Program-made: the position numbers and the translations under genes
Assembly: GCF_900455735.1 (NCBI RefSeq)
Contig: NZ_UAUI01000001.1
Location: 248,001 to 312,000 of the forward strand
Length of the DNA stretch: 64,000 bases
Reading direction: 5' to 3'
From: Rhodococcus wratislaviensis
GTDB lineage: Bacteria; Actinomycetota; Actinomycetes; Mycobacteriales; Mycobacteriaceae
Notes under the pieces: generated by a model
What the model was told of the DNA's origin: nothing
Seen by the model: the letters and a program-made list of their open reading frames with translations, nothing else
Databases searched by the model: none
Part shown: positions 18,067-36,206 of the stretch, piece after piece
Layout: each line of letters begins with the position of its first letter
Numbering within the stretch: the first letter of the stretch is position 1

Positions 18067-18220
18067 GGCGGCGCTCCAGTTCTCGGCCCTTCGACTGCAG
18101 GCCGGTGTGGGCGCCGAGGACGACATGGCATGACCGCGCATATTCGAATAACCCTCGACATCCCCTACGCTACTCCCCCCACCGCCCAACCCCCTCCGAT
18201 CCCCGGGTGATTGTCAGCCG

Positions 18221-19043
18221 TCAGGGATCGTCCGGCGCTGCGGGGAGCGTGACGACCTGAGCGGCATACGTGAGACCCGCACCGAATCCGATGAGCAGTG
18301 CGGTGTCTCCCGCGTGTGCTCGACCGGTCCGCAGGAGCGTCTCCACGGCCAGCGGGACGGAGGCCGCGGACGTGTTTCCAGCATCGACGATGTCGCGGGC
18401 GACCACCGTGCTCGGTAGCAGTTTCGGGCGCTTGGAGATCGCTTCGGTGATGCGCAGATTGGCCTGATGCGGGATGAACGCATCCAACTGTTCCACCGTG
18501 ACGCCGGCTCGGTCCAGGGCTGCTCGTGCAATCTTCTCCATTTCGACGGTGGCCCAGCGAAACACAGCCGGACCGTTGATTCACCCACGGGTGTGGCCCC
18601 GTGGGATTGTCACGAAACTCCGTCCAGGACAGTTCCTGCGCTAGGACGTGGGCGAGCGAGCCGTCCGAGCCCCATTCCACCGGTCCGATTCCTGCCTGTG
18701 ATGAAGCACCGACCACGACAGCACCCGCGCCGTCGGCGAAGATGAATGCAGTCGACTTGTCCGTGAGGTCGACGAATTCGCTGGCACGCTCGCAGCCGAT
18801 CTGGTCGGCGGACACCTGCGAAGCCCGCAGAGCGTCCCGTCCCGCGGCCATGTCGATCACCGTTTCGTCCGGCCCGGCGAATCGCCGGTTTCGGATGCGG
18901 GATCGGACTCGGATCCATTCGTCGGTGGAATCGATCTGCCGGCAGATCTCGTCATTGGTCACCACCCGCTCCGGCCGGTAGACACCCAACCCCAGAATGG
19001 AACTGTGTTGTAGCTCTTCTGCATTGGCTATCGAAGCAGTCAT
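18221..19043 (-). pseudogene. Decayed 3-oxoacyl-ACP synthase III (fabH-like)
   Basis: Three pieces of a KAS III can be read. From ATG 19043 the N-terminus is intact (SSILGLGVYRPERVVTNDEI, DSTDEWIRVRSRIRNRRFAG). After ...SADQIG (about 18800) it jumps straight to FVDLTDKSTAFIFADGAGAV, so roughly 80-100 residues including the active-site Cys region are missing. Near 18574-18585 the frame is lost; the rest continues in another frame as FRWATVEMEKIARAALDRAG, FIPHQANLRI (catalytic His) and DAGNTSAASVPLA (catalytic Asn), ending at 18221. The product cannot be an active condensing enzyme. Confidence 0.85.
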
Positions 19044-19241
19044 GGGCTTCTCCGCTGTTGCACCCGCGACATTCATCGGTGGCATCCGCCGGGTGGGATT
19101 GCCATCCAGTGTCGGCGTGAGCCGCGGCCCGAGACAGCCACCCTGGGGTGGGATGACGGCACCCCTCCCTGTGTCGGCGACCGATCGCCGGCCAACCGGC
19201 GAGGTAGCCGAGTAGAAATCGCACACTTCCGCCCCGAGCCC

Positions 19242-20132
19242 GTGGGTCCGACAATAGGGAGCGTGAGTTCTCGACCTTCCGCCGCAGAGTGGGCGCTGAG
19301 TCAGGTCCATGCCGTGCGTGACGATCCTGCAGCCCGTCACGAGCTCATCGCCCGTACCTATCACGGTCCGATCGGCAGCGCACCCCGGCACCTGCCGTTC
19401 CGTCGGGCGGCTTTGTCGTTCATGCGCTGGCAGATTCGCCGCGGCGTGCTGGCGCCGCTCGGTGCAATGCCGCCCGGAAGTCCGTGGTGGCGAGCGGTCA
19501 ACGAGCGGCTGATCCGCGACGGCTGCGAGGCTGTTGCCCGGAGCGGCGGAATGGGAGGGACGCCGTCCTCGCACACGGTCGATCTGTGGATGCGGTTCGT
19601 CGCCGATCCGACCGCACGCACGTGGTACCGCGCCCACAATGCGAGCATCGCCTCCGCCTACCTGGACCATCGCGACCTTGCCTGCACCGAGAGCCGTCCG
19701 GAGCGCTTCTTTCTCAACGTCGTACTGCTCCGTGTTCTCTATGCCCATGCCTTGGTCGCGGCGCCGCGACTGGCGCTCGGGCCGCTCGCGCCTGCCGGTC
19801 CTCTTCTGGGAGATCCCCGCCTCTCGATGACCGGGATCTTCCTGTCCCTCTCTCGGGTCCTCCCCGACCGATATCCCCTCGGGGACGACGTCGCGGCATA
19901 TGTCGCCGCTGAGCACAACGTCGGCGAGATGCTGGATTACGGCCTGATCGGGCCGCGACTGCAGCGATTGTACGAATGGTCAGCCGAAAAACTCGACGAG
20001 CCGGGGCTACTCGACTGCATTTGTGACGGTAGTCCGACGTACGCCTGGTCCTACGCTGATTGCGAGGTTTGGCATCCGGCGACCCCCGCCGCCACGATTC
20101 GCGCGGTTCGGCGGATATTGCCGGCAAAATAG
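19242..20132 (+). CDS. Conserved protein of unknown function
   Basis: 296 residues from GTG 19242 (GTG 19263 is an alternative; neither has a good ribosome site). Mostly helical and Arg/Ala-rich with many Trp and His residues, e.g. RRAALSFMRWQIRRGVLAPL, TPSSHTVDLWMRFVADPTAR and AAYVAAEHNVGEMLDYGLIG. No signal peptide and no convincing membrane segment. I do not recognise a domain. It follows the dead fabH-like gene in divergent orientation. Confidence 0.6.
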   Translation: MGPTIGSVSSRPSAAEWALSQVHAVRDDPAARHELIARTYHGPIGSAPRHLPFRRAALSFMRWQIRRGVLAPLGAMPPGSPWWRAVNERLIRDGCEAVARSGGMGGTPSSHTVDLWMRFVADPTARTWYRAHNASIASAYLDHRDLACTESRPERFFLNVVLLRVLYAHALVAAPRLALGPLAPAGPLLGDPRLSMTGIFLSLSRVLPDRYPLGDDVAAYVAAEHNVGEMLDYGLIGPRLQRLYEWSAEKLDEPGLLDCICDGSPTYAWSYADCEVWHPATPAATIRAVRRILPAK

Positions 20133-22814: not shown

Positions 22815-22926
22815 GTCCGTCCATGTACCCACCCCGTCAAGCAGCCGACCTGACCTGGAAAGTTCCCTCTGACCGGCATGCCGCGATCGGGTGTTGTGGT
22901 GGATGCAAGTGATAGAACTTCTAGCC

Positions 22927-23442
22927 ATGATCCTCCCGAAGGTCCGAGACCCTCGCTTCGTCACCGTCCGCCGCGGTGGGACCCTCACCGACTCGGATCA
23001 CCAGCTTCTGGCCCTGTGGGCAGCATCGTGCGCGGAGCACGTCCTACACCTGTTCGAGTCGACTCGGCCTGACGACCCACGACCGCGTCAGGCGATCGAG
23101 CACGCCCGCGCTTGGGTGCGCGGGGAGGTCAGGATGATGCAGGCCCGCGCGGCGGGCGGCCATGCGATGGGCGCGGCCAGGGACCTGCGTGGTGCAGCAC
23201 GGCACGCTGCATACGCTGCGGGGCAGGCCGGAGCTGTCGCGCACGTTGCAGCGCATGAACTCGGTGCTGCCGCCTATGCGATCAAAGCCGCGCGTGCTGC
23301 CGCGCCGGAGGGTGAGGGCGAGGCGGCAGGACGACGTGAATGCCGGTGGCAGCGTGACCAGCTCCCTGAAGCGATTCGCGAGCTCGTACTCGACGACCAG
23401 CGATTGCGGAACGACATCTGCTGGTCAGTGTTCGACTGCTGA
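22927..23442 (+). CDS. Immunity-like protein (Imm-5 type)
   Basis: 171 residues from ATG 22927. The pattern RDPRFVTVRRGGTLTDSDHQ, LLALWAASCAEHVLHLFE, RPRQAIEHARAWVRGE and the Ala/His-rich helices AAYAAGQAGAVAHVAAHELG match the all-helical Imm-5 family of predicted immunity proteins in polymorphic toxin systems. No toxin or secretion gene is adjacent, so it is an orphan here. The ending (RNDICWSVFDC) is unusual. Start has no clear ribosome site. Confidence 0.62.
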   Translation: MILPKVRDPRFVTVRRGGTLTDSDHQLLALWAASCAEHVLHLFESTRPDDPRPRQAIEHARAWVRGEVRMMQARAAGGHAMGAARDLRGAARHAAYAAGQAGAVAHVAAHELGAAAYAIKAARAAAPEGEGEAAGRRECRWQRDQLPEAIRELVLDDQRLRNDICWSVFDC

Positions 23443-27698: not shown

Positions 27699-28442
27699 TC
27701 ATTCCTTTTCCCGGGCGGCGACAATGGCGGCGAGGTTTGCGGCGATGTTCTCCTCGGCAGCAACTTTGTCCACACCCAGTCCGGTGAGCACACCGACCCC
27801 GTCCTCGACCTCGAGCAGGGCGAGCAGGATGTGCTCGGTGCCGATGTAGTTGTGCCCCAGACGAAGCGCCTCACGGAATGTCAGTTCGAGCGCCTTGCGT
27901 GACTGAGTGTCGAAGGGGATGAGTGCGGGCACCTCCTCGACCGCGGGGGGCAGCGTCGCGGTTGCGGCGTGCCGGACCGAATCCAGTTCCACCCCCTGCG
28001 CGGCGATCGCCCGGGCGCCGAGCCCTTCGGGATCGGTCAGGAGTCCGAGGACGAGATGCTGGGGCAGGATCTCGGCGTTGCGAGCGGCCCTGGCCTCGTT
28101 CTGAGCGATCACCACCACCTGTCGTGCGCGCGGAGTGAACCGACTGAATCCCTGATTCGGATCGAGGTCGGAGGCTTGCCCGGGGTCCTTGGGGACGAAC
28201 CGCTTCTGCGCGGCCTGCTTCGTGACGCCCATGCTCTTGCCGATTTCGGTCCACGATGCCCCCGAGCGGCGAGCCTGGTCGACGAAGTGACCGATGAGAT
28301 GGTCGGCCAGTTCACCGAGGTGTTCCGCAGCGAGAACCGCGTCGGTGAGTTGCTCGAGCGGGGCTTCTGCGTGCACCTTCTTGATCGCATCGATGAGCTC
28401 GTCGAGCCGGATGGGTGGGGTCGTGCGGTCCGAATTCTCCAT
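27699..28442 (-). CDS. HTH protein with Clp N-terminal repeat domain
   Basis: 247 residues. The first ~90 residues contain an HTH (WTEIGKSMGVTKQAAQKRF); the remainder is a double Clp-N repeat (FTPRARQVVVIAQNEARAAR, ILPQHLVLGLLTDPEGLGAR, LRLGHNYIGTEHILLALLEV), normally the substrate/adaptor-binding domain of ClpC/ClpA. No ATPase domain follows. It may sense Clp substrates or damaged protein and regulate genes. Two matching inverted repeats lie just upstream of the start, implying autoregulation. Confidence 0.82.
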   Translation of the reverse strand: MENSDRTTPPIRLDELIDAIKKVHAEAPLEQLTDAVLAAEHLGELADHLIGHFVDQARRSGASWTEIGKSMGVTKQAAQKRFVPKDPGQASDLDPNQGFSRFTPRARQVVVIAQNEARAARNAEILPQHLVLGLLTDPEGLGARAIAAQGVELDSVRHAATATLPPAVEEVPALIPFDTQSRKALELTFREALRLGHNYIGTEHILLALLEVEDGVGVLTGLGVDKVAAEENIAANLAAIVAAREKE

Positions 28443-30304: not shown

Positions 30305-31018
30305 GTGTTCTCCTCGCAAAGGGAATTCACGGCGTACGGACCGTCCTATTGGGCCATGATCGTGCTGTTCGTCGTGGGGGCCGCGATTCTGGTCTGGCTC
30401 GGACGAAGGCAGACCGAATCGCAGGCCCGACGCCTGGGCCGCGTCCTTGCGGTGCTGACGGCCGCGATATACGGCGCGACGCTGGTTCATTTCTCGATTC
30501 CGCCCACGATCGCCGACTCGGTACCGCTGCGCCTCACCGATCTCGCGACCGTGGCGGCGGCCTGTGCGCTGTGGTCCCGGGCGCAGTGGGCCTACGCACT
30601 CACGTACTACTGGGGACTCGTGCTGAGCACCCAGGCGTTGATCTCGCCTGTTCTGACCGGCCCGGACTTTCCCCATTACCAGTTCCTCGCGTTCTGGGCG
30701 ATTCATCTGCTCGTGGTCTGGGCGGCCATCTATCTGACGTGGGGACGAAGGATGCGGCCCCGGTGGCGCAGCTACCGGTTCACGGTCCTGGTCACGGTCG
30801 TGTGGGCGGCAGCTACCTTCACGTTCAACAGCATCGCCGGAACCAACTACGGCTTCCTCAACAGAAAGCCCGCCACCGCGACCCTCCTGGACGTGCTGGG
30901 TCCCTGGCCGGTGTACCTAGTGACCGCGACAATGCTGATTCTCGTCGTGTGGGCGCTGATGACCTGGCCGTGGGAGCGGGCACGACGACGCACCGAGGAA
31001 GGCCCTCTGCCGTCCTGA
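30305..31018 (+). CDS. TIGR02206 (YwaF) family membrane protein
   Basis: 237 residues from GTG 30305, six or seven membrane segments. Family landmarks: FTAYGPSYWAMIVLFVVGAA, LRLTDLATVAAACALW, AYALTYYWGLVLSTQALISP, and FTFNSIAGTNYGFLNRKPAT. Function unknown. It follows the permease-prefix gene by 23 bases in the same direction and may share its PadR-controlled transcript. Confidence 0.8.
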   Translation: MFSSQREFTAYGPSYWAMIVLFVVGAAILVWLGRRQTESQARRLGRVLAVLTAAIYGATLVHFSIPPTIADSVPLRLTDLATVAAACALWSRAQWAYALTYYWGLVLSTQALISPVLTGPDFPHYQFLAFWAIHLLVVWAAIYLTWGRRMRPRWRSYRFTVLVTVVWAAATFTFNSIAGTNYGFLNRKPATATLLDVLGPWPVYLVTATMLILVVWALMTWPWERARRRTEEGPLPS

Positions 31019-31116: not shown

Positions 31117-32106
31117 GTGGGTGGACTTGGTATCGATCTCGGAACTGCCAACACTGTCGTCGGAACTCCCGACGACGGCATCGTACTGAACGAGCCGTCC
31201 TTCATGCTCGTTCGAACGAAGGATCCGCATCGTGCTCTCGCGATCGGCACGGAGGCGCGAAGTCTCGTCGGCCGCACTCCTATCGGAATCACGCCGGTTC
31301 GACCGTTGCGTGACGGGGTGATCGTGGACCTGGAGTCGGCGCGGGCATTCGTCACGGCCGTCGTCAAACGGGTCTCCTCGGCCAGGCGATACGGTCTGCG
31401 TCCCAAGGCCGTCATCTCGGTCCCTGCGGGCGCAACCCCGCTCGAGCGTCGGGCACTGCTCGAGGTCGGACACGAGGCGGGCCTGCGGAAAGTGGGGTTG
31501 GTGCCGGAGCCGGTCGCGGGTGCCCTCGGCTGCGGGATCAACCCGCTCGAGCCACGGGCCCACCTCGTCGTCGACATCGGTGGCGGCACTTCGGAAATCA
31601 CCGCCATCTGTTTCGGTGGCATTCTCTCCCACCGCAGTTGCCGACTCGCGGGAGATGAACTGACCAACGCGCTGTACCAGTACTTGCGGTCGGAGCACAA
31701 GATCGTGGTCGGCGAACTCACCGCCGAGCGGGCGAAACTGGGCGCACCGGAGACCGACGAAGGGCAGTCACTCGTCGTGGAGGGCCGCGACGCAGTCACC
31801 GGCCGGGCGCGATTCGTCACACTCGAGACCGAGGAGATCGTGGATGCGTTGCGTCCGACCACAACCGGAATCGTCCAGACACTGACCGAGTGTCTCGAGG
31901 ACCTTCCTCCCCAGGCGATCGGCGACGTGATGTCGGAAGGACTCCTCGTCATCGGCGGCGGGGCGATGCTGCGTGGTCTGTCCCAGCTGCTCGAGGAGTC
32001 CTTCGGGTTCCCGGTGAAGACGGCCGAGCGCCCACTCACCTGTGTCGCAGAGGGCGCTACGGCGTGTCTGGTGCACCCTGAGGTGGTTGCCGCCTACAGC
32101 GCCTGA
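31117..32106 (+). CDS. MreB-like actin homologue
   Basis: 329 residues from GTG 31117 with GGAGG seven bases upstream. Actin-fold ATP-binding motifs: phosphate-1 GLGIDLGTANTVVG, connect/phosphate-2 VVDIGGGTSEITAI, and the adenosine-region GLLVIGGGAMLRGL. Overall length and order match MreB/Mbl. The usual EPxAAAIGAG motif reads PEPVAGALGCGINPLEP. The gene is convergent with the RodA-PBP fusion; their stop codons abut (TGA then TCA). Probably scaffolds that synthase, by analogy with rod complexes. Confidence 0.85.
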   Translation: MGGLGIDLGTANTVVGTPDDGIVLNEPSFMLVRTKDPHRALAIGTEARSLVGRTPIGITPVRPLRDGVIVDLESARAFVTAVVKRVSSARRYGLRPKAVISVPAGATPLERRALLEVGHEAGLRKVGLVPEPVAGALGCGINPLEPRAHLVVDIGGGTSEITAICFGGILSHRSCRLAGDELTNALYQYLRSEHKIVVGELTAERAKLGAPETDEGQSLVVEGRDAVTGRARFVTLETEEIVDALRPTTTGIVQTLTECLEDLPPQAIGDVMSEGLLVIGGGAMLRGLSQLLEESFGFPVKTAERPLTCVAEGATACLVHPEVVAAYSA

Positions 32107-34950
32107 TCACCGATTCGGCGGCGGCGCGGGCGGTCGCGGGAAGTAGTGTTCGAGGAGTTTCTTGACCACGGGGCCCGCTGTCGCCGACCCGAAGCCACCG
32201 CCGCGGATCAACACCGACACCTGGATCTGGGGGGCGTCGAACGGCGCGACCGCAGAGAACCAGGCGTTGAGTCCTTCGCCGGGCGCCGACGGGTCCTCCG
32301 CCGTGCCGGTCTTCGCGCCGGCCGGTACGGGGAGGTCCGCGAGTTGCCCGGCGGTCCCGGCCGACGCGGACGCCCGCATGCCTGCCCGGACGGGACCGAG
32401 CAGGTCCGCGAACGGTAGGCGCTGTGGCTCCGCTGTCGGGATGGGGGTCAGTTCCGACCCGTATGCGGCCGCGAGCTGAGGCGTCACCATCGCACCCGTG
32501 GCGATGCCCGACGTCCAGCGCGCAACCTGGATCGGGGTCGCGCTGACGGTGCCCTGCCCGATACCCATCAACAGGGTCGACCCGGGATACCAGGTGGCCC
32601 CGATGCTTCCGACGTTCTCCGGGGTGCCGAGGAATCCCTCGGCCTCGCCGGGCAGATCGATCCCGGAACGACGGCCGACGCCGAGTTGCCCCGCGACGTC
32701 CGCCATCTTCTCCGGGCCCAGGAGTTCACCGAGTTTGTAGAAGTAGACGTTGTCGGACCACTGGATCGCCTGGAGCAGATTGTGCGGGCCCATCGGTTGC
32801 CAGTTCCGGAAGGTGTGGCCACCGTAGGTGTAGGCCGCGCCCGTGTCGATCACCGTGTCGGGCGACAGAACCGGGTATCGGGTATTCGCCGCCGCGACGA
32901 CGATCTTGAAGGTGGAACCGGGCGGGACCGCGGTCTGGGTGGCGTTGTTGACCAACGGGCTCGGCCCCGGGGTCTGGCTCTGCGCCGCGAGGGCGACGAG
33001 GTCGGCCGGAGGTCCGTAGACGTTGTTGTCGGCCCCCGGGACGCTGGCGAGGGCCAGCACGGCTCCGGTCCGCGCGTCCATCACGACGGCGGCACCGAGG
33101 TCGCCCTTGCTGGTTCGCATCGCCTCCACGAGCGCGTCGGTGGCCAGGTTCTGGACCCCGATGTCGAGGTGCAAGCGCAGATCGTGGCCCCGCACCGGGT
33201 CCACGCGTTCGCCGGTGGCCACCGGATGCCCGGATGGATCGACGTAGATGCACTGTTTGCCGTCGCTGCCGCGGAGCAGAGCGTCGTACTGCTTCTCGAG
33301 TCCCGCCTTGCCGACCCGTGACCCGAGCGCCAGATGCGGCCAGCGTTCCATGTCGTCGGCGTCGGCGACCCCGACGTGGCCGAGGACGGAAGCGAGCACG
33401 GCACCATAGGGATACTGCCTGCGACCGGACGGCACCACGAGCACACCGGGAAGTCGCGCATCCACGATGCGCCGAGCCTGGTCGGGCGCGACTCTGCCCA
33501 CGGCCACCTGAGACTCCCCCTCGCCACCGGCGTCGATCAGGTCCGCCAACCCGCCGGGGGACGTGCCGAGCAGCGCGGCGAGCCGGTTGCGGGCGTCGTC
33601 GTCGTTCTCCTCGAACATCCGAGCGACCACCGCCACCGCATACTCGGCGACATTGACCGCAAGAGGAACACCGTTGCGGTCGAGGATCAGCCCGCGCTCT
33701 GCTGGCAGGCGGATGCACCGCATCATCTGCTGGTCGCTCATCGCCCGAAATTCAGCACCCCGGTCGTGCTGCAACTGCCAGGCGAACATCGACATCGCGA
33801 CGAGTGCCGCGGTCATCGTCAGGGTGCCCGCCGACATTCCGCGCGGTCGGCGCCGCCGTCGGGGATCCGGGGCCCACAGGGGTCGCGCGACGCCGTCTCT
33901 GCGCACCGCGAGTATCAGTCCGATGGCGGCGAATCCGACGATGGCGGCCGTACCCCCGTAGCTGAAGAGGGGAATCGGCATCCCGGTGTGGGGCAGCAGC
34001 GACAGACTCTGACCGATCGACACCAGCGCGTGGATCCCGAACAGTCCGCCGATCCCGGCCGCGACGAGCGCAGCCTCCCGGGTCCGTGCCGTTCGCGCGG
34101 CGAGGGCTGCCCGCCACACGATGACCGAGGTCGCCACCACGACGGCCAGGCCGGCGATCAGACCCCACCCGTACACGAGGCTGGCGAACGCGAGATCGTG
34201 CTCCGATTCGGGTAGATACTCGGCCCGCACGTCGTACAGCGGGTCACGCGCCAGACCCCACAGCCCACCACTACCGATCGCGATGTTCGCCTGCAACTCG
34301 GCCCATCCCGCGCCGGCGGGGTCGGCGTTGCTCGACAGGAACACGTGCACCCGTTCGAGCTGGTAGGGACGGAGGAAGAGCACGGCCAGCGGAAGCGACG
34401 CGATACCCAGCACGAACAGCGGAACCAGAGGCAGCAGCGGGACCCGGGCGAGGATGAGCATGAATCCCGCCGTCGCAACGAGGACGACGGCAGTCGACAG
34501 GTCGGGTTGGAGTGCGACGAGTGCGATGGGCACGCCCGCGATCACGAGGGTCGCGACGAATCGTGCCAGGGTGAACCCCACGGCGAGCATGCTCGCGGGC
34601 ACGAGAACCAGAGCGAGCTTGGCCAGTTCGGACGGCTGGACGGTGAATACGCCGAAGTCCAGCCAACGTTGAGCACCCTTGGTCGCGACCCCCGCGAGCG
34701 GCACGACCGCCAGTAACACGGTCGCCACGGTGAACACCGCCCAGCCGAAGGCGCGGAGATCACTCATCCGCAGGCGGGACACCACATACATGATGCCGAG
34801 ACCGGCAACGGCGAAGAGCGTGTGGCGAACAGCATCTGCCGTCTTCCCTGTCGACAGCAAATTCAGAAGGCCGAGCACAACGAGAACGATCGCCGCACCG
34901 ACGATCCACGGGTCGGATTCGTGCTTGTCGTCGTGCTTGCCGTCGTGCAT
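32107..34950 (-). CDS. RodA-PBP2 fusion: SEDS glycosyltransferase and class B transpeptidase in one chain
   Basis: 947 residues. Residues ~1-365 are a SEDS (FtsW/RodA) polymerase with about ten membrane segments: KGAQRWLDFGVFTVQPSELA, the catalytic-type Asp150 in LQPDLSTAVVLV and IPLFSYGGTAAIVGFAAIGL. After a basic linker (RRRRRPRG) and another membrane helix (TMTAALVAMSMFAWQLQHD), residues ~400-940 form a class B PBP: RGLILDRNGVPLAVNVAEYA, Ser679-x-x-Lys682 (PPGSTFKIV), Ser732-Asp-Asn734 and Lys880-Thr-Gly882. All key motifs are present, so both steps of peptidoglycan synthesis are predicted. 20 bases downstream of its operon partner. Confidence 0.93.
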   Translation of the reverse strand: MHDGKHDDKHESDPWIVGAAIVLVVLGLLNLLSTGKTADAVRHTLFAVAGLGIMYVVSRLRMSDLRAFGWAVFTVATVLLAVVPLAGVATKGAQRWLDFGVFTVQPSELAKLALVLVPASMLAVGFTLARFVATLVIAGVPIALVALQPDLSTAVVLVATAGFMLILARVPLLPLVPLFVLGIASLPLAVLFLRPYQLERVHVFLSSNADPAGAGWAELQANIAIGSGGLWGLARDPLYDVRAEYLPESEHDLAFASLVYGWGLIAGLAVVVATSVIVWRAALAARTARTREAALVAAGIGGLFGIHALVSIGQSLSLLPHTGMPIPLFSYGGTAAIVGFAAIGLILAVRRDGVARPLWAPDPRRRRRPRGMSAGTLTMTAALVAMSMFAWQLQHDRGAEFRAMSDQQMMRCIRLPAERGLILDRNGVPLAVNVAEYAVAVVARMFEENDDDARNRLAALLGTSPGGLADLIDAGGEGESQVAVGRVAPDQARRIVDARLPGVLVVPSGRRQYPYGAVLASVLGHVGVADADDMERWPHLALGSRVGKAGLEKQYDALLRGSDGKQCIYVDPSGHPVATGERVDPVRGHDLRLHLDIGVQNLATDALVEAMRTSKGDLGAAVVMDARTGAVLALASVPGADNNVYGPPADLVALAAQSQTPGPSPLVNNATQTAVPPGSTFKIVVAAANTRYPVLSPDTVIDTGAAYTYGGHTFRNWQPMGPHNLLQAIQWSDNVYFYKLGELLGPEKMADVAGQLGVGRRSGIDLPGEAEGFLGTPENVGSIGATWYPGSTLLMGIGQGTVSATPIQVARWTSGIATGAMVTPQLAAAYGSELTPIPTAEPQRLPFADLLGPVRAGMRASASAGTAGQLADLPVPAGAKTGTAEDPSAPGEGLNAWFSAVAPFDAPQIQVSVLIRGGGFGSATAGPVVKKLLEHYFPRPPAPPPNR

Positions 34951-34970: not shown

Positions 34971-36206
34971 TCAGCAGCGAGCGTTTTCGGCGGGCACCAG
35001 CAGCGGCTCGGACGCGGCCGTCGCCGGGGCGCTGGTGACGGCTGCGACGGCGAGCGCGGCGCCCGGCGGCAGATCCGTCCGGACGATGCCGTACACCTGT
35101 TGTGATCCGGGCTGAACGGGCAGTGTCACGTCACTGGTGGCCCGCGCCTCGCCGGAACAGCGGTCGTACACGTTGACCTTCCAGGTCACGGCGCCGACAG
35201 CCGCTGCCGGATCGAGGCGCATGTCGACGCGGATCGCGCATGCTTGCCCGGGCCGGCACTCCCCGTTGGCGCGCGTGACCGTGACGAGGGTGATCGGCCC
35301 CGCGCTCGCGGGGGCACCGACGTCGACGGGCGGCGGCGGCCGGCCGGCATCGATCGTCGGCGGCGCCGGCTGATCAGCCGGGGGTTCCGGTGGAGGCGGC
35401 GGCGACACGGCCCGAATCTGATTCTGCTCCGTGGGATTCACGGGATTCAGGACGGCGTCCCATCCCCGGCGCAGCTCCGACCACACCCGTGGAGCCATCC
35501 ACGCTGCAGCGACGAGTAGCAGGATCGCGATCAGGCCGACTGCTCCTTGCCGCCGCGACGGCCGTCTCCTCTTGCGATGCCACGGATCCCGGACCGGCGG
35601 GAACCATCCTGACGGCGCGAGGGTGGGTCCGGCCGCCACAAAGGGCCAGTCCTCGACGTCCGCCCGCTCCCCCACCACCCGGCTGTCAGGACGCGGCCGT
35701 CCCGTGGTGGCCGCGACGAGCCCGGCGAGTTGGCAGCGCCGCCTTCTCTCCTCGGCCGGGTCGACGTCCGGTGCGATCGCTCGACGAACCCTTTGCACCA
35801 ACGCATCCAGATCCGTTGTTTCGGCGAGCGATTCGTGCAACCGGTCGGCCAGTGCCGAATCGCGGCCGTTCGTCGCGATACTTCGGAAAAGCTCGGCCAC
35901 CTCCTCGTTCGTGTCGTGCCGGGACGCACTGCCCGCGCACTCGATCGTGAGCTGGCCACTGTCGGACACCGTCACGCCCCGGAGGCGGAGCGGGTAGGGC
36001 CCCTCGCCACGCGCCAATTCGAGCTGATGGAGCGCATCCGCGACGAGCAGCGCGGCCTGCGCTGGTGTCAACGTCGCCACCGCAAGGAGTCTTCGGAGTG
36101 CGACGCCGCCGACACGTTCGTCGTGATCCATGTGATCGGGTGAGTCGGATCGCACATCGGCGGGTTCGGTTCTCCTCGCAAGGAGCCCTGTCACTGCTTC
36201 GATCAT
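34971..36206 (-). CDS. Single-span membrane protein upstream of the RodA-PBP2 fusion
   Basis: 411 residues. The N-terminal ~210 residues are cytoplasmic (LTPAQAALLVADALHQLELA; repeated Arg-rich helices), one membrane helix lies at about 222-240 (VGLIAILLLVAAAWMAPRVW), then a Pro-rich linker (SPPPPPEPPADQPAPP) and an external domain with four or so cysteines (GECRPGQACAIRVD, DRCSGEA) ending in a C-terminal Cys. Family not recognised. The 20-base gap to the fusion gene suggests co-transcription and a possible accessory role in wall synthesis. Confidence 0.75.
   Translation of the reverse strand: MIEAVTGLLARRTEPADVRSDSPDHMDHDERVGGVALRRLLAVATLTPAQAALLVADALHQLELARGEGPYPLRLRGVTVSDSGQLTIECAGSASRHDTNEEVAELFRSIATNGRDSALADRLHESLAETTDLDALVQRVRRAIAPDVDPAEERRRRCQLAGLVAATTGRPRPDSRVVGERADVEDWPFVAAGPTLAPSGWFPPVRDPWHRKRRRPSRRQGAVGLIAILLLVAAAWMAPRVWSELRRGWDAVLNPVNPTEQNQIRAVSPPPPPEPPADQPAPPTIDAGRPPPPVDVGAPASAGPITLVTVTRANGECRPGQACAIRVDMRLDPAAAVGAVTWKVNVYDRCSGEARATSDVTLPVQPGSQQVYGIVRTDLPPGAALAVAAVTSAPATAASEPLLVPAENARC

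Follow-up and report, generated by a model that had tools for sequence, protein, structure and literature searches.

The locus and its genes

The stretch analysed here, hereafter the window, comprises 64,000 nucleotides of Rhodococcus wratislaviensis DNA (assembly GCF_900455735.1, contig NZ_UAUI01000001.1, positions 248,001 to 312,000). On its minus strand lies a single gene in which a RodA-like SEDS domain is continued by a class B penicillin-binding protein (PBP). This fusion gene stands between a gene for MreB and a gene for a 411-residue membrane protein, here called X411, and the three are treated below as one module. Their features are as follows (TM, transmembrane; ORF, open reading frame).

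32107..34950, minus strand: SEDS–class B PBP fusion, 947 residues (P0001); ORF with an ATG start and no internal stop; ten TM helices, a linker, TM11 and an extracytoplasmic PBP
33898..34860, minus strand: SEDS (RodA-like) domain, residues 31-351 (PF01098, E 6e-63)
34195-34197, minus strand: codon of the catalytic Asp, D252 (alignment to E. coli and Thermus RodA)
33844..33897, minus strand: cytoplasmic linker, residues 352-369 (54-sequence alignment and AlphaFold2 model)
33724-33843, minus strand: TM/pedestal helix of the PBP, residues 370-409 (AlphaFold2 model)
33214..33708, minus strand: dimerisation/pedestal domain of the PBP, residues 415-579 (PBP_dimer, PF03717, E 3e-32)
32149..33096, minus strand: transpeptidase domain, residues 619-934, with S679xxK, S732DN and K880TG (PF00905, E 8e-51)
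34971..36206, minus strand, as the fusion: X411, a one-pass membrane protein of 411 residues, ending 20 bases before the fusion start codon; cytoplasmic, putatively pseudokinase-like domain (residues 34-168), TM helix (218-253) and extracytoplasmic beta-sandwich (301-404)
31117..32106, plus strand: member of a distinct MreB subfamily; its stop codon abuts that of the fusion, the two genes lying tail to tail (PF06723, E 6e-96)

The fusion protein and its active sites

A preliminary description of this DNA had proposed that a full SEDS domain and a full class B PBP share one continuous frame of 947 residues, which the open ORF, the motifs and three Pfam domains, all well past the cut-off, bear out; its coordinates were right, and the gene, for which it had given no strand, lies on the minus strand. 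The motifs that it listed are all in place, with WLDFG at residue 96, QPSELAK at 105, SxxK at 679 (STFK), SxN at 732 (SDN) and KTG at 880. Where it erred was in taking Asp150 for the SEDS hallmark. The catalytic aspartate is D252, which aligns with position 262 of E. coli RodA (8tj3_B) and 255 of Thermus RodA (6bar, 6pl5), the position at which the mutant Thermus chain 6bas carries Ala; according to the accessible part of one study, the D262A substitution abolishes polymerisation by E. coli RodA, and the aspartate is therefore required (PMC6207328). Across 54 aligned homologues D252, S679, K682, S732, K880 and G882 are invariant, whereas D150 sits in a QPDL motif and falls outside both the invariant and the 90% lists.

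The N-terminal half thus combines the PF01098 profile with a catalytic Asp in the loop before TM8, as defines a SEDS protein, and the C-terminal half combines a pedestal with a transpeptidase bearing SxxK, SxN and KTG, as defines a class B PBP. By sequence, the closest solved structures are E. coli RodA for the SEDS half (8tj3_B, E 1.3e-40) and E. coli MrdA/PBP2 for the PBP half (8tj3_C, E 7e-58), with FtsW and FtsI structures scoring lower. The fusion nonetheless reaches the cut-off of neither corresponding equivalog model, which marks it as a divergent enzyme: it scores 242.8 bits against RodA model TIGR02210 (cut-off 336.7), though more than the 209.1 bits of the FtsW model, and 399.2 bits against PBP2/MrdA model TIGR03423 (cut-off 455), the top-scoring model among those matched.

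In an AlphaFold2 model (mean pLDDT 87.5, pTM 0.75), ten membrane-type helices are followed by a short linker, whose blocks are of low confidence (72 and 55), and by a long helix, residues 370-409, leading into the PBP. Ten helices return the SEDS C-terminus to the cytoplasmic side, where the PBP has to start, so that the topology of the fusion is workable.

Homologues, junction and selection

A protein search returned 818 homologues at E <= 1e-3 among 7998 candidates scored, and among the 120 of these that were listed only one, a 572-residue fragment, has no SEDS domain. The linker measures 24-27 residues in 54/54 aligned homologues, and L358, W359 and R370 at the junction are invariant, which indicates that the joint is old, constrained in length and in part constrained in sequence. 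The stop or frameshift between the domains that the preliminary description had allowed for is absent; with an open ORF and a constant junction in all 54 homologues, a frameshift or missed stop was rejected. Scanning named genomes yielded 11 fusion loci with matches near full length (eight in Rhodococcus, two in Hoyosella and one in an Actinophytocola metagenome-assembled genome, MAG). Two homologues bear names from other phyla, P0102 (Dormibacteraeota) and P0293 (Terriglobales), both from MAGs whose binning could not be judged. In comparisons with five relatives, NG86 omega was 0.08-0.18 for the fusion, 0.05-0.14 for MreB and 0.33-0.43 for X411, values of purifying selection: all three proteins are kept by selection.

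A 950-residue homologue from Rhodococcus jostii is 94% identical over 100% of the fusion query. Nygaard et al. 2023 (PMC10449877), in the portion of the article available to us, state that single-ORF SEDS-PBP fusions exist and cite the Rhodococcus RHA1 genome. Given the R. jostii protein and an X411 homologue in RHA1 (88% identity), the RHA1 fusion is very likely an orthologue. A natural one-chain version, as the preliminary description had it, is therefore real without being unprecedented, and the bare fact of such a fusion was already known. The available text of that article mentions the RHA1 fusion in one sentence, without MreB, X411 or distribution; here, its three-gene setting is described.

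MreB and X411

The adjacent MreB aligns along its length to Caulobacter MreB (4cze, E 1e-73) and has the MreB profile and the nucleotide-site motifs of the family; it exceeds the cut-off of NF010539 (311.8 against 293) and stays below that of TIGR00904 (300.9 against 365.75). Among the 120 matches listed of 6027 in a protein search, the top genera include Rhodococcus, Skermania, Prescottella, Actinophytocola, Haloechinothrix and Hoyosella. Letek et al. 2012, in the part of the text accessible to us, report mreB to be absent from all mycobacterial and corynebacterial genomes sequenced by then; the rhodococcal MreB beside the fusion is another kind of MreB. Near the MreB side of the module lies a TMEM164-related acyltransferase gene (30305-31018, plus strand; TIGR02206), a counterpart of which stands beside X411 in Hoyosella (L016, 7916-8635).

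X411 matched no family in Pfam or NCBIfam. Its N-terminal domain has neither HRD nor DFG at the positions that the kinase profile matches to the catalytic loop and the DFG segment, and so lacks what marks an active Ser/Thr protein kinase. Cysteines 317, 323, 350 and 411 are invariant.

Linkage and co-occurrence of the three genes

The fusion, MreB and X411 are neighbours at all 11 loci of the named-genome scan, with MreB convergent in ten and on the same strand in L018; in L018 and L020 the X411 match spans only about half of the protein. Two further families of the class contribute four loci, and all four have this neighbourhood; X411 is 35-41% identical at three of them (in L058 and L061 over its C-terminal part only) and is represented in L060 by a 140-residue match (32%, E 1.5e-6). 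At a stricter threshold of E 1e-8, X411 is detected at 14 of these 15 loci. The linkage has to be qualified at two of the other-family loci, where one ORF separates the fusion from MreB: a nameless one in L059 and a VanZ-like one in L060 (9916-10539; PF04892, E 7e-15).

Within the genus of the window, the fusion occurs in 14 of the 28 species sampled, in 16 copies, and MreB of this kind in exactly the same 14 species. All three genes are present at 14/16 copies (the MreB of L073, cut by the locus end in this linkage count, is whole in the MreB scan), and fusion and MreB are 6-24 bases apart in twelve copies, 159 in one and 1157 in one. The named-genome, other-family and genus sets overlap in species, and their counts are not additive.

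With the fusion as query and two candidates scored per genome, so that misses are possible, the fusion was found in 5/296 genomes of a class sample and, in a phylum sample, in 1/396, the window's own genome only. Some MreB is present in 207/296 genomes of the class sample. The five MreBs nearest to that of the window (100, 65, 63, 63 and 58% identity) belong to exactly the five genomes with a fusion, each close to it, and all further MreBs among the matches listed are at most 45% identical; among those listed in this MreB scan, 20 other members of the window's family had no MreB match. One genome (G136; C13, C14) has both a fusion-linked MreB (58%) and an ordinary mre-type MreB (42%), together with four SEDS genes.

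Other wall-synthesis genes of the genome

Besides the fusion, the genome has two genes for SEDS proteins and further class B PBPs. The first of these SEDS genes, between Mur-ligase and glycosyltransferase-28 genes, occupies the place of FtsW, and an FtsI-like PBP lies near a MraW methylase gene; the second, between a PBP and the gene of a PP2C phosphatase, occupies the place of RodA-PbpA. MreC, a component of the canonical Rod complex, was not found in this genome with PF04085, a model that detects MreC in 2/2 actinobacterial mre clusters tried (E 3e-30 and 3e-36) and in 8/14 controls. Nor did PF04093 match an MreD in this genome; that model is weak, with E 6e-7 and 7e-4 on two of two actinobacterial MreDs and detection in 5/14 controls.

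Phylogeny

The trees are quick maximum-likelihood IQ-TREE runs with SH-aLRT support only, sampled from the class, and so without RodA or MreB of other phyla. In the SEDS tree, 25 fusion halves fall on one side of a branch of length 1.74 (SH-aLRT 100), set against nine RodA, nine FtsW, 19 mre-linked SEDS and three sequences of unclear class; in the PBP tree the 25 PBP halves form one group (SH-aLRT 99, length 1.47) that weakly adjoins mre-linked PBP2 (88). Two of the 25 rows are the same protein (L058 = P0074). In the MreB tree, 16 fusion-linked MreBs are split from 20 canonical ones (SH-aLRT 100). Among the SEDS rows of unclear class, L122 grouped with the mre-linked sequences and L135 and L138 with FtsW; rows for second mre-linked loci (L118-L121, L124, L126, L128, L129) and for L139, whose SEDS is split over two frames, were dropped, as were places lacking a locus (30/44 places had loci). 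The PBP tree includes only one FtsI, on a long branch, and several PbpA rows cut by locus ends.

The fusion halves fall outside the RodA and PbpA groups, and fusion SEDS, PBP half and linked MreB outside the groups of the actinobacterial mre clusters. Since the halves and MreB each form groups of their own, the fusion and MreB both appear to be of single origin within the sample and not built from resident genes. On these trees, descent from the host's rodA/pbpA or FtsW/FtsI was rejected; so was, for MreB and SEDS, descent from the mre clusters sampled in the class, the PBP half being only weakly nearest to mre-linked PBP2.

Flanks and plasmid copies

In blastn comparisons, which can miss old synteny, the flanks of the module differ among most loci and, beyond close relatives, have little or nothing in common. 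Flanks are shared by the window, L010 and L017, by L011 and L012, by L016 and L020, and mutually by L058-L060; partial sharing links L015 with the window (~0.5 kb), L010 with L011 (~0.6 kb) and L012 with the window and L017 (~1.45 kb). Blastn revealed no shared flank for L013, L014, L018, L019 or L061.

Plasmids carry fusion copies in R. pseudokoreensis, R. oxybenzonivorans and Rhodococcus sp. WAY2 (L090, L091 and L092 are plasmid fusion copies), and the annotation shows no mreB closer than 6 kb to any of the three. Two genus genomes have an extra fusion copy, whose coordinates equal in one case, and nearly equal in the other, those of the R. pseudokoreensis and R. oxybenzonivorans plasmid copies (L075 and L090 are the same plasmid place); each of these genomes has a single MreB, beside the other copy, in a full module on another contig. 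Upstream of one plasmid fusion, two short matches to both ends of X411 lie at an annotated hypothetical protein of 118 residues, and X411 therefore looks truncated on that plasmid. The module is best read as being inherited, lost and moved as a unit.

Among genes near these copies are CopC (L091) and multicopper oxidase (L091 and L092). A protein with a Clp N-terminal domain is encoded near the module in the window (27699-28442, minus strand) and another near a plasmid fusion copy (L090, 10193-10801).

Discussion

Both halves of the fusion align near full length, catalytic residues included, with the Rod-complex pair RodA-PBP2 (8tj3 from E. coli, 6pl5 from Thermus), and engineered one-chain E. 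coli RodA-PBP2 fusions are active, as stated in the accessible parts of two reports (PMC10449877, PMC6207328). The fusion described here differs in being natural, in its linker of 24-27 residues, in scoring below the RodA and PBP2 equivalog cut-offs, and in the company it keeps, MreC and, with a weak model, MreD not having been found. With the actinobacterial mre cluster (mreB-mreC-mreD-pbp2-SEDS), which serves Streptomyces spore walls, the module has in common the genetic linkage of MreB with a SEDS protein and an enzyme resembling PBP2. In 20 such clusters, however, PBP and SEDS are separate ORFs in the order PBP then SEDS (SEDS was seen in 19, one contig ending early), MreC and MreD were confirmed in the two tried, and MreB, SEDS and PBP belong to other tree groups. 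The rodA-pbpA elongation cluster, with its Ser/Thr kinases, resembles the module in the SEDS-then-PBP order and, if X411 is indeed related to kinases, in having kinase-family genes nearby, whereas its enzymes again fall in other tree groups and the putative kinase-like gene of the module has no HRD or DFG. A stalk-specific MreB-dependent complex of Caulobacter (PMC6373972) is, going by its title alone, a further case of specialised MreB-dependent wall synthesis.

Observed by computation are one chain with conserved active sites, gene linkage and co-occurrence of the three genes, separate ancestry within the sampled class and no detectable MreC. We think it probable that the fusion works as a peptidoglycan synthase in one chain, within a three-gene module, together with an MreB filament and X411 as a link, and that the module adds MreB-guided, non-polar wall synthesis. 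Judging by homology and the conserved catalytic residues, D252 of the SEDS half would serve to polymerise Lipid II, and S679 of the PBP half to cross-link the product. The adjacent MreB would form a cytoplasmic filament that places and orients the fusion, presumably through physical contact, and X411 may serve as a membrane link in place of MreC/RodZ, with a putative dead kinase-like domain that would bind, inside the cell, either MreB or the synthase, and a beta domain with conserved cysteines that would touch the PBP or the wall outside. Cells otherwise growing at the poles through RodA/PbpA might in this way gain non-polar synthesis, of the side wall or in rounding. From the genes alone, the module is best read as a putative portable, reduced Rod complex. 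The fuller version of this idea, a 'mini Rod complex' in which RodA-PBP2 in one chain, a dedicated MreB and a one-pass, pseudokinase-like stand-in for MreC/MreD/RodZ add MreB-guided growth to polar-growing actinobacteria, many of whose family relatives are without MreB, is offered tentatively, as an idea that we doubt somewhat more than we believe it.

Several observations weigh against these proposals. MreB lies on the strand opposite to the fusion, and the two therefore do not form one operon here. Plasmid copies carry the fusion without MreB (2/16 copies in the genus and, by annotation, L092), so that a fusion gene need not have an mreB to itself. Conservation of X411 is low (31-41%, in many cases over half of the protein, for Hoyosella, Actinophytocola and the other-family loci), and its proposed kinship to kinases is weak: a local profile comparison gives P 2.5e-4, with a probability of only 43% in hhalign and of 12% globally. 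The failure to find MreD counts for little, because the model is weak on actinobacterial MreD. In the open-licence literature, we found no report of MreB-guided synthesis in rhodococci, nor, among titles and abstract starts, a paper on the MreB linkage of the fusion or on X411.

Instead of serving elongation, the same enzymes could act at a special stage, in rounding to coccoid or resting cells or in thickening the wall under stress, much as Streptomyces uses an MreB-directed complex for its spore wall. We give this possibility a chance not far below even. The module is dispensable, as the fusion is absent from 14/28 species of the genus and further genes of the SEDS and class B PBP kinds exist, and osmotic stress alters Rhodococcus morphology, according to the part of that report at hand (PMC5685639); on the other side, no developmental regulator was seen among the Pfam-named neighbours, and the neighbours vary between species. 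It is a good deal less likely that the fusion is a spare synthase retained chiefly for the tolerance of its divergent PBP half to beta-lactams or other kinds of wall stress. Its occurrence on plasmids in three Rhodococcus records would fit such a conditional benefit, and the divergence of the enzyme (399 of 455 bits for PBP2, 243 of 337 for RodA) and the VanZ-like gene between fusion and MreB in L060 point the same way; yet SxxK, SxN and KTG are intact, tolerance alone leaves the MreB linkage unexplained, and among the annotated neighbours no antibiotic-resistance gene was seen, only the copper-related ones by plasmid copies, no search aimed at resistance genes having been made.

Two further explanations concern the fusion itself, and we consider both highly improbable. 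Recent fusion of the resident rodA and pbpA genes would account for the SEDS-then-PBP order, which is reversed in canonical mre clusters; the long stems that separate the SEDS (1.74) and PBP (1.47) halves from RodA and PbpA speak against it, as does the weak leaning (88) of the PBP half towards mre-linked PBP2. An artefact, whether two genes merged by a sequencing error or a product present as two polypeptides in the cell, finds some backing in the partial cleavage, within the linker, of an engineered E. coli RodA-PBP2 fusion in a purified preparation, described in the accessible text of PMC6207328, which makes processing conceivable; it sits poorly with an identical junction in 54/54 homologues, with its near-constant linker length and three invariant residues.

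The guided-synthase module favoured above agrees with the earlier suggestion of a dedicated module outside the main division and elongation set, given the two other SEDS genes, the other class B PBPs and the separate clades of both halves. Of the checks proposed with that suggestion, the sequence-based ones gave homologues spanning both domains, an ordinary rodA/pbpA pair at the PP2C-SEDS-PBP place and each half in a clade of its own beside RodA/FtsW and PBP2. Right in its observation of the fusion, the preliminary description did not include the adjacent MreB and the linked upstream gene, the more unusual part. In our judgement, what is new is not so much the fusion as the compact and moving module, in which a one-chain synthase has an MreB to itself. 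As drug targets, SEDS-PBP pairs have mostly been studied as separate proteins that need to find each other; here, the two are tied together and come with an actin for themselves. Should the module work alone, it would offer a minimal system for asking how MreB, in the absence of MreC and MreD, directs the synthesis of the wall, and it would bear on how a polar-growing lineage gains or loses another growth mode. Its presence in half of the sampled species of the genus and absence from the other half provide a ready natural comparison, and G136 would be a natural test of the division of labour between two MreB systems.

Other genes of the window

At 22891-23442 on the plus strand, the window encodes an Imm5-like putative immunity protein (PF21805, E 3e-39). 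At 18165-19916 on the minus strand, the middle of an ORF resembles a piece of ketoacyl-ACP synthase III with an internal gap, which we take to be probably a decayed gene.

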